DNA from: a virus
DNA: 64,000 nt
Virus record (IMG/VR): IMGVR_UViG_3300031754_000002
Location: 41,859-105,858 of that record
Strand: one strand, 5' to 3'
Positions 47,825 to 55,204 of this stretch are shown here, one piece after another. The notes under the pieces were generated by a model. The model saw only the letters and a list, made by a program, of their open reading frames with translations. It had not been told where the DNA came from and did not search any database. The translations under genes and the position numbers were made by a program. Positions within the stretch are counted from its first letter, which is position 1, and each line of letters opens with the position of its first letter.

Positions 47825-48667
47825 CTAACCGTCCAGCAATGCGGCGATCTCGCGCAGGCTCCAAATGTGATCTGCGACGCCAGCAGCCATCGCGGGCGTC
47901 CGAGGATAGGGGTTGGCGAGCGTCGAGTGGACCCGCGCGAAGTTGTAGTGCATGTAGTGGAGGCTGACGGCGTGCGCGAAGTTCTCGGCCTTCTTTGAGA
48001 ACGCGTTGGTCAGGCGTGTGCAGCGCCTCATCCCCATTCGCATCGTCAAGTTCTGCCGCTCGACGTAGCTTGTGCTGATCTTCGCCGGGTCCGGGTCGCC
48101 GCGCTTCACGTCGATGTCGATGCCCGTGCAGACTGCAGGGCTATAGCGGCGTTCCCCGGACGGGTCACGGCCGTAGAGCTTCTGTAGGACGGCCCAGTCC
48201 ACTTCGGTTCCGAATGAGAACCCGATCGCCGCCGCGTACGCCTTCAACCCATCCGTCGTGAGCTGCACATGGCTATCCCGCAGCCGGTGCTTCAAGTCCA
48301 TCATGAACAGGAAGCCGTCTTCCGCGTTGCGCTGGCCCACGTACCAGCTCGGCACGAGCTTCGTGTCCGCGTCTATGGCGATCCACGTCCACACGTTGCC
48401 GTAGCCGTACTTGCCCTTGTGCTGCTCCGGCACGTTCTTCTGCTTGCTGTAGACGAAGTTCCATATCTCATCGCATTGGAGCGTCTTGCACGGCAGGTTG
48501 ACGAGCGTTCGGTCTTGGTAGCTCTCGCAAGCCTCTCCGAGGTCTACGACCAGTTTCGTGATCGTGTTCTTCGCGGCCCCCGTGATCCTCACGGTGCTTC
48601 GGATACTCATGCCCTCGACCAAGCAGCCGATGACCTGCGCGCGCTTCTCTGTGCTCAAGCGATTCAT
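47825..48667 (-). CDS. IS1-family DDE transposase (280 aa)
   Basis: It parallels the transposase at 17152-17991 throughout: MNRLSTEKRAQVIG start, LQCDEIWNFV, LTTDGLKAYAAA and STSYVERQNLTMRMG catalytic blocks, and NPYPRTPAMAAGVADHIW near the end. The pair are related but clearly diverged, so the two elements are not recent copies. Confidence 0.9.
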   Translation of the reverse strand: MNRLSTEKRAQVIGCLVEGMSIRSTVRITGAAKNTITKLVVDLGEACESYQDRTLVNLPCKTLQCDEIWNFVYSKQKNVPEQHKGKYGYGNVWTWIAIDADTKLVPSWYVGQRNAEDGFLFMMDLKHRLRDSHVQLTTDGLKAYAAAIGFSFGTEVDWAVLQKLYGRDPSGERRYSPAVCTGIDIDVKRGDPDPAKISTSYVERQNLTMRMGMRRCTRLTNAFSKKAENFAHAVSLHYMHYNFARVHSTLANPYPRTPAMAAGVADHIWSLREIAALLDG

Positions 48668-51467: not shown

Positions 51468-52754
51468 CTAATCCCTGAACGGGTCCATGGTATCCGGCCC
51501 AGCCATCGCTACCCCCAGCGGTCTAAGAGTATGGACGACTCGTATGCTATCCGCGTGAGCCGCAAGCACCTGATCCAACCGCTTGTAGGCTCCGGGTGCC
51601 TCATCTGCCGCCGCGCCGCGTAGCTCGATATGGCGCGCGGCAAGATCGGCCTTCGCCGCAGCCCAGTCAATCTTGCCGCCGCCTTCCGACACTGGACGCT
51701 TCACCATCTTCACCTGACCGCATTTAGGGCAGCATTCGGGTTTTTGTGTGCCCTTCGGCGCTATCCAGTCACAGTCACGGTTGCAGCACTGTAGACGCCA
51801 GCGCATTTTGCCTGCCGCCTCGTTGCGGGACATCACCCTTCCCGCGCCGTGGACGGTCGAATGCAGGAGTTCTTTCGCTGCCGGCGTGTCCAAACCTTCA
51901 AGGATCACTGAATCCTCCCCCATCGTGCTACCAACGAACCCGCGCTGTCCGGGCCATGCCGGCGTGGCGCCCTTGCGGACCACCCACACCACATTGCCGT
52001 CGTGAACCTCGCGGTAGCAGTGATTGTGGTGGTTGTGGACCGTCGCCACGGTCCAAGTTTCGAGGATGTCGTGACACACCTTCTCGACCACTACATCACG
52101 GCCCGCATAGGCGTACTCGCCTGCGAGCGTTATTGCGGACAGATACGCTTGTCCAAGCTCGGAGTCCTCGCGCAGCAGAACGGGCTCACCATCCTGCTTT
52201 TCCGGTGGCGCCTTGTCTGTGAACTTGCCGCCTTTAGCCATCGCCAGAAACCCGCTCGCGGTCTTATGGCCGAAGCCACGCGAGCCGAAATGAACGCCAA
52301 CCCACAGCCAGCCGTCCTCGTCAGAGAACAAGTCAACGTAATGATTACCGCCCCCGATAGTGCCGAGTTGACTACGGGCAAGTGGCGCGAGTGCGCGTTG
52401 CGGCTCAAAGTCAGCGTTAGCGATCTTGTCGAGTACCGGATGATCTACGGGTTCGGCGTTGGGGCGCCCCATTCCAAAGCTGATCCGCGCGGCGATCTCA
52501 TCCATGATGCGCGGCACGTCGATATCGTCGGCCCTGAGGTTCGTGCGCGATGCTCGGTTTCCACAACTCAAGTCGAACCCGGCGCCGGATACTGACAGGT
52601 GTTCACGATAAGCGACAACGCCGCCCACGGGCTGACTATACCCAAGGTGCCCGTCCGCCATTAGTGCCGCGCCGTACACGTCTTCTCCTTCGGCGCAGCG
52701 TTGTAGCTGCTCGATCGCGTTGGGGTCCACATCACCCCGGACGGGGAAGCCCAC
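51468..52754 (-). CDS. rtcB: RtcB RNA ligase with zinc-ribbon insertion (428 aa)
   Basis: All RtcB metal and guanylylation sites are visible: FDLSCGN (Asp, Cys), TIGGGNHYVDL, VHFGSRGFG, TVHNHHNHC, RKGATPAW and STVHGAGRVMSR with the nucleophilic His region, then HTLRPLGVAMAG. A Cys4 ribbon (CNRDCDWI, CCPKCGQV) is inserted before the last third. GTG 52754 lies five bases after the Ro60 stop. RtcB joins 2',3'-cyclic phosphate and 5'-OH RNA ends, for example in cleaved tRNAs. Confidence 0.93.
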   Translation of the reverse strand: MGFPVRGDVDPNAIEQLQRCAEGEDVYGAALMADGHLGYSQPVGGVVAYREHLSVSGAGFDLSCGNRASRTNLRADDIDVPRIMDEIAARISFGMGRPNAEPVDHPVLDKIANADFEPQRALAPLARSQLGTIGGGNHYVDLFSDEDGWLWVGVHFGSRGFGHKTASGFLAMAKGGKFTDKAPPEKQDGEPVLLREDSELGQAYLSAITLAGEYAYAGRDVVVEKVCHDILETWTVATVHNHHNHCYREVHDGNVVWVVRKGATPAWPGQRGFVGSTMGEDSVILEGLDTPAAKELLHSTVHGAGRVMSRNEAAGKMRWRLQCCNRDCDWIAPKGTQKPECCPKCGQVKMVKRPVSEGGGKIDWAAAKADLAARHIELRGAAADEAPGAYKRLDQVLAAHADSIRVVHTLRPLGVAMAGPDTMDPFRD

Positions 52755-52758
52755 GGCC

Positions 52759-54360
52759 TTACCAGCGTGCGGCCGAGAAGTCCGCGATCAGGTTCGGGGT
52801 AGCGCTGTCGAAGCCCACCACGTCCAACATTCCGGGATCGTCCGGACTGGCGATAGTGAACCCATTAGACACCATCCCCACTACGACAAGCCGTGCATTG
52901 ATGCCACTCTGACGACGATACTCCATTAGAGCCTGCGCGGGATGAACACGGCCCGCGAAAGTCTCGCTGTCGGTATATACAAGGAACGTGTCTACTTCTA
53001 GTCCCGCATGCAGTGCGTAGACCATCGGTAGCGCACAGTCCGTGCGGCCAAAGGGCATACCGTTCGTACGGCGAAGCACATCGTCTAGCCGCTCACGCGG
53101 AGAGAAGTCCAGCGGCGTGAACGTGTCTGAGAACGCCATGATCTGATGACGCGGCTCAACCGCTGCCGTAACAAGCGCCATCGCGGTAGCTCCCACTCGC
53201 GGGGTAATGCCGGGCATCGCCGCGATCGGTGGCCCAGCCATCGAGCCGGACACGTCCAACCCAAGAAGCGTCCGCTTGCCGGTAGACTCAACGTTTCCGA
53301 AGGCAGTGTAAAACGTGGCATCGAGTGCATCCACGATCTCGCGCAGTGGCTCCCACGAGTTCGTTCCCCGCGCAGAATGACCGGACGCATAGGTCACGAG
53401 CGCGCCGAGCACTGAGAGCGGGTGTACGCGAGCCTTGCGAATAGTCTCCACGTCTGCCAACTGGTCGGTCACGAGCTTCGTGTTGTCGCCCATTGGCTTG
53501 AGCACGCCGATACGTGTCATCGTCGCAAGGTTGCGGATCATGGCCGTCATCGGCATACCCGCGTTCAACAGTGCGGCCCAGACCTCCACGGAGTTCAAGT
53601 GCTCCGTGTGCAACGCCTCACGCGGGAGCGTCGAGCCATACTGTTCGATGAGCTTCGCGGTGTCGCGGGGCTTCTCCGCAGCCTGCGCAGCGTTGAACGC
53701 CTCGACGGCCTTCGGCGTCTCCTTGGTGCGAGCGCGAAGCCAGTCGAACGCGCCCGAGTCCGAGCGGGCGTGAGCGAACGTCAGCCCCGCTGGATGGCAG
53801 AGACGGAGAAGATCCAAGTGGGTCCAGTTGTCTCGCTGCCTGTACTTGACCATTTGGTATGCAAGCTGGTTCGGCTCCTTGTCCGTGTACCAGCGAGCGA
53901 CACCCTTCGCCAACGCTGGCCCCCAGCCGCGCTGTGTCTCCACGAACTCGGCGAAGTGGAACAGGTGCGTTCCGGTGCGCGCAACCTCGGGGATCGCTTC
54001 GCACGCGGCCCTACGGACCTGCTCGTCCTTGTGCGCACATGCGATAGCCAGCGCGTAAAGACAGGGGTCATTCTTCGGTGCCCGACCGTCCTTGGAGATA
54101 GCGACGATCTCCGCTACGGCATCGGTCTTGTGCTCATCCAGTGCCGCCCGAACACCCTCAATGTTTGCGCGGGTCAAGTCCCGCTCCGTGGCGTAGTAGC
54201 AGCCCCCCTCGCTGCTGAGCACAAGCCAGCGCCTCAAACGGTCCATCGAGCCGATCTTCCACGCAAACCCTCCCGCGTGGTTTTCGACTTGCGTGGAGCC
54301 AGGGATAGCCTCGGACTGCGGGGTCGCCAACGGCGACGCGGCACGAGTCAGATACGACAT
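52759..54360 (-). CDS. rsr: Ro60-like RNA-binding protein (TROVE plus vWA, 533 aa)
   Basis: GGAG precedes ATG 54360. The TROVE ring occupies about residues 1-340 (GGFAWKIGSMDRLRRWLVL, NPCLYA-type HEAT repeats, LPREALHTEHL, MPMTAMIRNLATMTRIGVL). The vWA domain follows with the MIDAS motif LGLDVSGSMAG and FGRTDCALPM. Ro60 binds Y RNAs and misfolded RNA ends. The operon with RtcB and upstream Y RNA candidates supports an RNA-repair or surveillance role. Confidence 0.93.
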   Translation of the reverse strand: MSYLTRAASPLATPQSEAIPGSTQVENHAGGFAWKIGSMDRLRRWLVLSSEGGCYYATERDLTRANIEGVRAALDEHKTDAVAEIVAISKDGRAPKNDPCLYALAIACAHKDEQVRRAACEAIPEVARTGTHLFHFAEFVETQRGWGPALAKGVARWYTDKEPNQLAYQMVKYRQRDNWTHLDLLRLCHPAGLTFAHARSDSGAFDWLRARTKETPKAVEAFNAAQAAEKPRDTAKLIEQYGSTLPREALHTEHLNSVEVWAALLNAGMPMTAMIRNLATMTRIGVLKPMGDNTKLVTDQLADVETIRKARVHPLSVLGALVTYASGHSARGTNSWEPLREIVDALDATFYTAFGNVESTGKRTLLGLDVSGSMAGPPIAAMPGITPRVGATAMALVTAAVEPRHQIMAFSDTFTPLDFSPRERLDDVLRRTNGMPFGRTDCALPMVYALHAGLEVDTFLVYTDSETFAGRVHPAQALMEYRRQSGINARLVVVGMVSNGFTIASPDDPGMLDVVGFDSATPNLIADFSAARW

Positions 54361-54499
54361 GGGGGTGCTCCTATCGGTTGCGTTCCGGGGTGAAACGACG
54401 GGCATTGAGTGGGAGTCCGATCGGGGCGGCAACAGCCCCTGTGCCCTATCCAGATAACGGACCTAGCCCTCCGGCTCGTCGCCTCAAAAACCACATCAG

Positions 54500-54625
54500 A
54501 TACGGAGGGCATGTGTTGCTGAGTCCGGTTTAGCGCTCTGCCGTTGAGCTACCCCGAAAGGCCGGGACTCGAACCCGGATCACTCTCTTATGAAGGAGAA
54601 CAGACTCTGCTCCGGCTCCCCGCGC
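54500..54625 (-). ncRNA. Y RNA candidate 2 (YrlA-like tRNA mimic)
   Basis: On the minus strand the order is: 5' strand GAGCCGG, hairpin TTCTC/GAGAG, T-arm CCGGG-TTCGAGT-CCCGG (54562-54578), short closed acceptor-like loop CCTTTCGGGG, TA, D-arm GCTC-AACGGCA-GAGC (54535-54549), then CCGGACTC pairing with the 5' strand around one bulged A. This is a circularly permuted tRNA fold without a free CCA end, as in YrlA RNAs. A T5 run lies downstream. Confidence 0.6.
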
Positions 54626-54644
54626 TGCGGAGCGTATCAGATGC

Positions 54645-54760
54645 GAGGGCATTTTGTGCGGATCGGATGTCTTGCCAATGAGTCCCCCGCATCCCAAGGG
54701 AGCAAAGGACCAGGAATCGAACCTGGGTAACCGATACCAGCTCCGGCTCTCCCACCCGAG
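54645..54760 (-). ncRNA. Y RNA candidate 1 (YrlA-like tRNA mimic)
   Basis: Minus-strand order: GGTATCGG pairs with CCGATCC (54660-54666) leaving one bulged U; between them lie the T-arm CCAGG-TTCGATT-CCTGG (54710-54726), an 8-bp acceptor-like stem TCCTTTGC/GCGGGGGA closed by TCCC-TT-GGGA, and a weak D-arm around ATTGGCAA. It shares flanking repeats with candidate 2, so the two are tandem duplicates upstream of ro60. Confidence 0.55.
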
Positions 54761-54829
54761 CAGTTCCATCGCGCCGTCAAGATTAGCAGACTGCGGGCAT
54801 TTGATTAGCCACGGAGGTATCGTCTGAAG

Positions 54830-55204
54830 ATGATCCGTGGCCTCCGGCTCGCGGTCGAACGCGGAACGCAATCTGCGCCTGAAACTATAGCGAAGGGGCA
54901 ATGGGTGCAGTTCGGGGGTTTACGGCCAAGGCCGCCCACCCCCAAATCCACCAAGCCAGAGTCCGAACTGGAGCGAGATAACCGAGCCTGCGTCGGCTCC
55001 TTCAACGAGCATCTTACATACATAGGCGCTGCTCGTCAAGCCCCTAACGACGGAAAGCCCCAGCTACCGAGCTTTTCAGCGGTGGCAGCCAGGGCTTTCC
55101 GGGTTCCTACGAGGGTGGAGAGTGGACCGCCAGGATATGGGGACCATCCACGGGGCCAGCGTATACGACCGAGCGGCGGAACGTTTCACGGCAAACGCAG
55201 CTAA
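54830..55204 (+). CDS. Doubtful ORF overlapping a structured region (124 aa)
   Basis: A frame from ATG 54830 with GGAGG 12 bases upstream. The start lies within an inverted repeat (CCACGGA/TCCGTGG, 54810-54841) and a long hairpin falls inside (55052-55100). The composition is low in clear domains. It may be a chance frame over non-coding RNA. Confidence 0.3.
   Translation: MIRGLRLAVERGTQSAPETIAKGQWVQFGGLRPRPPTPKSTKPESELERDNRACVGSFNEHLTYIGAARQAPNDGKPQLPSFSAVAARAFRVPTRVESGPPGYGDHPRGQRIRPSGGTFHGKRS
55052..55100. other. Long extended hairpin
   Basis: GGAAAGCCC and GGGCTTTCC pair over 9 bases, and inside them GCTACCG and CGGTGGC pair over 7 bases with one G-T. Such a two-part stem suggests a structured RNA near the Ro60 module. 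Strand unknown. Confidence 0.4.

Follow-up and report, generated by a model that had tools for sequence, protein, structure and literature searches.

A Ro60 locus with a Y RNA array in a phage genome

In a soil phage, the final 64 kb of the 105,858-bp IMG/VR virus record IMGVR_UViG_3300031754_000002 (hereafter the window, with positions numbered from its first base) carry on the minus strand a gene for Ro60, a gene for the RNA ligase RtcB immediately behind it and, upstream of Ro60, a tandem array of five Y-RNA-type units (55003-54396) in the order E, A, B, C, D. Because the first 41 kb of the record encode portal, terminase, major head, head protease and DnaB proteins, the original prediction, which had been made from the letters of the window, was correct in assigning the locus to a phage; it was also correct in crediting this phage with tRNA genes of its own, others being present. 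The features of the locus are listed below, where R1 and R2 denote covariance models built from 28 short Y RNA units and from 30 tRNA modules, respectively, the latter with the window sequence excluded.

55011-55039, minus strand: sigma-70-like promoter, TTGACG-17-TAAGAT (consensus scan; predicted +1 coinciding with the 5' end of unit E)
54892-55003, minus strand: Y RNA unit E, long type with a degenerate tRNA-like part (box and stem scan, 8/8 outer stem; ortholog in phage locus L014)
54791-54854, minus strand: Y RNA unit A, short type without tRNA module (R1, 54.4 bits, E=5.2e-10, the unit being itself a member of R1; fold)
54643-54753, minus strand: Y RNA unit B, with 5' and 3' boxes, clear T-arm and degenerate D-arm (box and stem scan)
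54503-54622, minus strand: Y RNA unit C, with predicted Ro60-binding stem and permuted tRNA module (Rfam YrlA; R2)
54588-54595, minus strand: anticodon-type loop of unit C, CUUCAUAA, 8 nt (sequence; R2 alignment)
54396-54481, minus strand: Y RNA unit D, without tRNA module (R1, 23 bits, E=0.0061 for 64 kb, both strands)
52759-54360, minus strand: Ro60, with TROVE and vWA domains (Pfam vWA_Ro60 1.8e-61, TROVE 6.4e-39)
51468-52754, minus strand: RtcB RNA ligase, GTG start (Pfam PF01139 3.9e-61, phrog_1075, PDB RtcB alignments)

All five units follow a common plan, consisting of GAGCCGRMG, a second stem, a head, and a 3' box ending in UGCCC, while the outer stem differs in sequence among units yet retains its pairing on either side of an invariant A-C mismatch. 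Sequence and covariation show in each unit a basal stem that includes the conserved internal loop of Ro60 type, and the heads are of three kinds: plain hairpins in A and D, degenerate tRNA-like structures in B and E, and a permuted tRNA with an anticodon arm in C. Two tRNA-like RNAs had been predicted upstream of Ro60; these correspond to units B and C, and the count missed the three further units E, A and D. Their identification as Y RNAs holds, with R1 finding unit D and R2, free of window sequence, finding unit C at 55.1 bits (E=1.4e-14; 54532-54598), the runner-up in the window, at 30.7 bits, being a region of ordinary tRNA. The Rfam YrlA model (RF02553), proposed earlier as a check and run over 721 bases of the window, agrees in part: it matches one window unit only, unit C (54500-54622; 32.2 bits, E=4.9e-5), but below its gathering score of 69 bits, and phage relatives score 33-40 bits.

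By loose unit criteria there are five units in 0.6 kb, whereas resampled sequence yields ~11 per 64 kb; the window has three perfect outer stems, all of them inside the array. An initial stem-and-motif scan gave only ~3.5-fold enrichment over controls, and covariance models were used instead; the 3' box by itself is uninformative, being equally frequent in shuffles. Within the window R1 finds A, D and part of B, giving 20 bits on the 5' part of unit B with a different 3' partner (54696). Unit D has an 8/8 outer stem including the conserved A-C mismatch, and its 3' end lies 36 nt before the Ro60 start codon. Unit B, which has no anticodon arm, is by alignment the ortholog of a tRNA-type unit in L014, a locus where E, A and B have orthologs in matching positions, preceded by a -10-like box that also corresponds in position. 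For unit B a tRNA, selenocysteine-type or ordinary, was considered (tRNA-Sec 21 bits, E=0.17; no call by ARAGORN) and rejected, because its L014 ortholog is a Y unit. The sigma-70 consensus scan gave 2 matches in the region compared with a mean of 0.3 in shuffles, which is a prediction of a promoter and not evidence of its activity.

Translation of Ro60 likely begins at the ATG at 54360, which is preceded by AGGAG, rather than at the TTG at 54432. The protein matches PDB entries for Ro60 (1.7e-114) and for Rsr of D. radiodurans (2nvo, 1.4e-111) over its length. Together with the TROVE and Ro60-type vWA domains, these matches bear out the complete Ro60 orthologue that had been predicted. Its K172, R176 and H189, conserved in twelve phage proteins, align with K170, R174 and H187 of human Ro60, which we take to be the residues that contact Y RNA. 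Ro60 is found in 341 of 50,697 phage records, mostly those of Mycobacterium and Streptomyces phages and under the annotation 'Ro-like protein'. Phages and bacteria are intermixed in the Ro60 tree (9 label changes, at least 5 of them forced), with the window protein among phages; the closest phage by Ro60 is that of L014, at 71% identity.

Y RNA units at phage and bacterial Ro60 loci

The family was sampled at 97 phage Ro60 loci (with a few near-duplicates) and 80 bacterial Ro60 loci, and phage and bacterial loci both carry Y RNA units. In the R1 family alignment 16 of 17 pairs have two-sided changes, with a covariation of 0.72 compared with 0.233 when shuffled and at most 0.18 when slid; the R1 training units were selected by a rule rewarding the outer stem, which leaves the second stem as the cleaner sign of covariation. 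Matches to R1, most of which are not members of the model (whose training units all came from the Ro60 strand), lie on the Ro60 strand in 92/92 cases at 54 phage loci and 67/67 cases at 57 bacterial loci, nearly all of them near Ro60 and mostly upstream. In several phages the last unit ends ~30-60 nt before the Ro60 start, and at five phage loci (L048, L050, L062, L066 and L093) units occur downstream of Ro60.

A phage Ro60 with Y RNAs is an already known kind of locus. Phage TROVE proteins have been reported (PMC7824862), as have Y RNAs near Ro60 in mycobacteriophages (PMC12282133, citing Chen 2014). The Rsr locus of Listeria phage CKA15 similarly combines a phage Ro60-like gene with highly transcribed short upstream regions proposed as Y RNAs and, unlike the class of unit considered here, is described in the sections consulted without mention of tRNA-like heads or anticodon arms (PMC12282133).

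Some loci in the sample show other arrangements of tRNA-like sequence. At L002 (2750-2848) a tRNA body in native order has, in place of its anticodon arm, the two strands of the Ro60-binding stem with an AGUUU closure, and reads as a circular permutant of a YrlA-type Y RNA; at L085 (~1900-2000) a native-order tRNA-like body lies within a Ro60-type stem, and a GAAA tetraloop hairpin replaces the anticodon loop. In Rhodococcus phage Trina (L095, 2146-2354) a 209-base 'tRNA-OTHER' pseudogene is annotated in the Y RNA region before Ro60.

A permuted tRNA with an anticodon arm

Earlier work describes YrlA as a mimic of tRNA in circularly permuted form (PMC11472068), and a review of Y RNAs names D, T and acceptor arms only (PMC8394870). 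Like bacterial YrlA (RF02553), unit C lies beside Ro60 and shows a predicted Ro60-binding basal stem and a rotated module of T-arm, capped acceptor and D-arm; unlike it, unit C scores under the Rfam cut-off and belongs to a mixed array of five, and nearly half of the tRNA-type units have an anticodon arm that is not part of bacterial YrlA as described (PMC8394870). The order of a tRNA-type unit is 5' Ro60 stem, bases 29-43, variable loop, T-arm, acceptor, cap, acceptor, D-arm, bases 26-28, and 3' Ro60 stem, such that the anticodon stem is split: bases 27-28, after the D-arm, pair with part of the 29-43 block before the T-arm, with compensatory changes. In unit C the module holds anticodon arm, T-arm, capped acceptor and D-arm, and the anticodon stem is complete at 5 bp (C27-G43, U28-A42 and CUC/GAG), with bases 27-28 at 54533-54532.

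Of the 114 tRNA-type units, 49 (23/56 phage, 26/58 bacterial) can form a full anticodon stem of 5 bp closed by a 7-base loop, and this number drops to 13.6 +/- 2.8 when the 26-28 triplets are exchanged among units. Loops of 5, 6, 8, 9 or 11 bases fit only 4-6 units, and loops of 4 and 10 bases, which fit 13 and 26 of the 114, are presumably register effects. When units are picked on loop and inner stem, positions 27-43 pair in 44/48, as against 28.2 +/- 2.5 after shuffling (maximum 37 in 2000 shuffles), and positions 28-42 in 44/48, as against 22.1 +/- 2.8 (maximum 32); kinship may inflate these counts, but the pair types vary (CG, GC, UA) and many phyla are represented. Units picked on pairing alone carry C32 (39/49), U33 (45/49), R37 (46/49) and A38 (42/49), with 34-36 variable and many different anticodons among them. 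The alignment of 30 tRNA modules has two-sided changes at 17 of its 21 pairs, with a covariation of 0.678 vs 0.178. Annotated laboratory phages carrying such anticodon-arm RNAs are LinStu, Sparky, BearBQ and FuzzBuster. Anticodon-like loops were also considered for the short units, where 7 bases is the commonest loop length (11/28), yet these are not convincing.

When rejoined in tRNA order, 46/48 units are called as tRNA by ARAGORN, compared with 13-25 of ~47 with exchanged halves and 4/50 as encoded; a rotated tRNA with an anticodon arm would account for the failure of tRNA finders and of the Rfam model to detect these genes. In 69 of 113 units a loop of 3-5 bases, frequently UUCG or GNRA, seals the acceptor, so the units look like mimics rather than tRNA genes, and probably they are not tRNA genes. 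CCA follows exactly after the discriminator in 12/114, which makes descent from tRNA genes likely. Among the 49 anticodons, 12 are Ser/Leu/Tyr or stop anticodons in units that have no long variable arm. At L110, L114, L148, L155 and L158 (Verrucomicrobia and similar) and at phage locus L059, permuted units upstream of Ro60 have a discriminator and CCA directly after the acceptor strand, followed by a short spacer and then the 5' strand; these are possible real permuted tRNA genes.

We did not find an anticodon arm of Y RNAs in the literature searched, primary papers lying outside that search, and it is possible, if on balance doubtful, that the arm has already been noted. If many Y RNAs have a real anticodon arm, part of their function is probably to be read by an anticodon reader, which narrows the candidate partners and makes a link to defence easier to test.

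RtcB at the Ro60 locus

Ro60 and RtcB are adjacent on the minus strand as predicted, but the gap between them is 4 bases rather than five. The ligase itself was rightly recognized, given the PF01139 match (3.9e-61) and the aligned catalytic Asp, Cys and His, which are present in the window protein and invariant in the RtcB alignment. A zinc-ribbon-like insert (CCNRDC...CCPKCG) lies near the C-terminus (51620-51800, minus strand), between the HGAGR and DEAPGAYK motifs; similar inserts are found in the RtcB of L184 and L100, and none in that of Tunturi_5.

The original prediction had further combined Ro60, upstream RNAs and RtcB into a three-part system, of which the assignment of the RNAs as Y RNAs stands and the extension to a general rule does not. 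Within the fetched flanks RtcB adjoins Ro60 at 0/97 other phage loci and at 7/80 bacterial loci, and a search for RtcB anywhere in 51 Ro60-phage records gave 0/51, the identical search being positive in 9/14 control genomes. On these counts we reject a dependence of phage Y RNAs on RtcB, and tRNA repair is not the general purpose of phage Ro60 loci. The nearest phage RtcB is 61% identical, on a contig that has no Ro60 or Y RNAs nearby. We infer that RtcB came later, into a pre-existing phage Ro60-Y RNA locus. A recent origin of the window Ro60 from a Thermoleophilia-type host with RtcB (L100) was also considered and rejected, since the protein groups with phages (95/94). The rsr-yrlBA-rtcBA operon of Salmonella shares with the window the combination of Ro60, Y RNAs and RtcB; unlike that operon, the 105,858-bp record, which may be incomplete, has no match to RtcA or RtcR, and RtcB is not common to other Ro60 phages.

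Possible roles of the Ro60 ribonucleoprotein

Our preferred reading, to which we assign a probability of roughly 60%, is that the locus encodes a phage Ro60 ribonucleoprotein in which five Y RNAs serve as adaptors and gates. Transcription from a single promoter would cover the five Y RNAs first, followed by Ro60 and RtcB. Ro60 would bind the basal stems, and the Y RNAs would serve as gates of the Ro60 ring and as interchangeable adaptors, their tRNA-like heads perhaps docking proteins that read tRNA, such as host PNPase, tRNA-modifying enzymes or anticodon nucleases. The ribonucleoprotein may then steer or shield structured RNA during infection, with RtcB an apparent add-on of this single phage lineage that could seal cleaved tRNA and would not be part of the core. 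In D. radiodurans a Y RNA acts as gate and tether of Rsr (PMC4726728, PMC8394870), and the Rsr-Y RNA-PNPase system (RYPER) thus has in common with this reading a Ro60 ortholog whose Y RNAs are gate and tether; unlike RYPER, the window locus is phage-borne and has several Y RNAs with differing heads, and a PNPase partner is here hypothetical. In its favour are the covariation of the basal stem and of the tRNA module, the placement of the R1 matches on the Ro60 strand, the R2 match to unit C, the conserved Y-RNA-contact residues, and an array and promoter position retained in L014. Several observations within the window weigh against the adaptor reading. Units B and E have degenerate heads, and single-unit folds are mostly no better than shuffles (z-scores -2.3 to +0.4). 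Unit C is an imperfect member of its class because of its 8-base loop and its acceptor stem of 2-3 bp, and ARAGORN calls no tRNA in it, even rejoined. The originally suggested link of the locus to defence by anticodon nucleases is conceivable.

Plain RNA quality control or decay, in which the Y RNAs would tether Ro60 to PNPase for the degradation of structured host RNA and the heads would be mere shape, overlaps with the adaptor reading and differs from it by assigning the anticodon arm no role. Such a role of Rsr, Y RNA and PNPase is known in D. radiodurans (PMC8394870, PMC4726728), and a clear anticodon arm is missing from half of the tRNA-type units and from every short unit; the conserved 7-base anticodon-type loop and split 5-bp stem are, however, left unexplained, and we hold this account to be plausible at somewhat less than even odds. 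A role as bait would give the arm a direct purpose: host anticodon nucleases would bind or cut the Y RNAs instead of tRNAs, cutting could open the Ro60 gate, and RtcB, in the window phage, would reseal tRNAs. Full anticodon arms with 32, 33, 37 and 38 conserved and 34-36 variable, the many different anticodons, a sealed acceptor (hence not for decoding) and the competitive-inhibitor role suggested for Salmonella YrlA (PMC7790460) all suit a bait, but the class is equally common in bacterial chromosomes (26/58) and phages (23/56) and hence not phage-specific, Salmonella YrlA, the sole one examined for cleavage, is uncut (PMC7790460), many phage loci are without an anticodon unit, and RtcB is absent from other Ro60 phages. 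We therefore consider bait unlikely, and give similarly little credence to the broader proposition that, in phages and bacteria, some Ro60-bound Y RNAs are sealed, circularly permuted tRNAs with a readable anticodon loop that act as nuclease baits or tripwires, with loci varying the anticodon.

Two further explanations seem considerably less probable. Were the units only 5' leader elements through which Ro60 represses its own mRNA, the 36 nt between unit D and the start codon, and the ~30-60 nt in several phages, would be as expected, but arrays of five or more units with tRNA heads exceed a leader role, and in L048, L050, L062, L066 and L093 units lie downstream of Ro60; cis-regulation alone is quite improbable. 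The least probable is that the units are permuted tRNA genes from which an endonuclease removes the Ro60 stem, RtcB joins 28 to 29, and RNase P/Z open the acceptor loop to yield a working tRNA. The tRNA calls on rejoined units (46/48 vs 13-25 of ~47 with exchanged halves), the CCA right after the discriminator in 12/114 and the RtcB gene adjoining Ro60 in the window speak for such processing. The circularly permuted tRNA genes of algae and archaea share with the units a 3' half that precedes the 5' half and a complete tRNA on rejoining (PMC3978253). Unlike those genes, the units mostly have sealed acceptor loops (3-5 nt in 69/113) and a Ro60-type stem at the opening; moreover, 12/49 have Ser/Leu/Tyr/stop anticodons and no long variable arm, RtcB is absent from other Ro60 phages, and the acceptor of unit C is too short.

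Neighbouring elements

A strong hairpin, GGAAAGCCC...GGGGCUUUCC (55039-55100, minus strand), lies immediately upstream of the predicted promoter, where a terminator scan was negative. On the other side of the locus, ~3 kb past RtcB, an IS1-type transposase is encoded at 47825-48667 on the minus strand (PF03400, E=1.4e-4, just under the cut-off).

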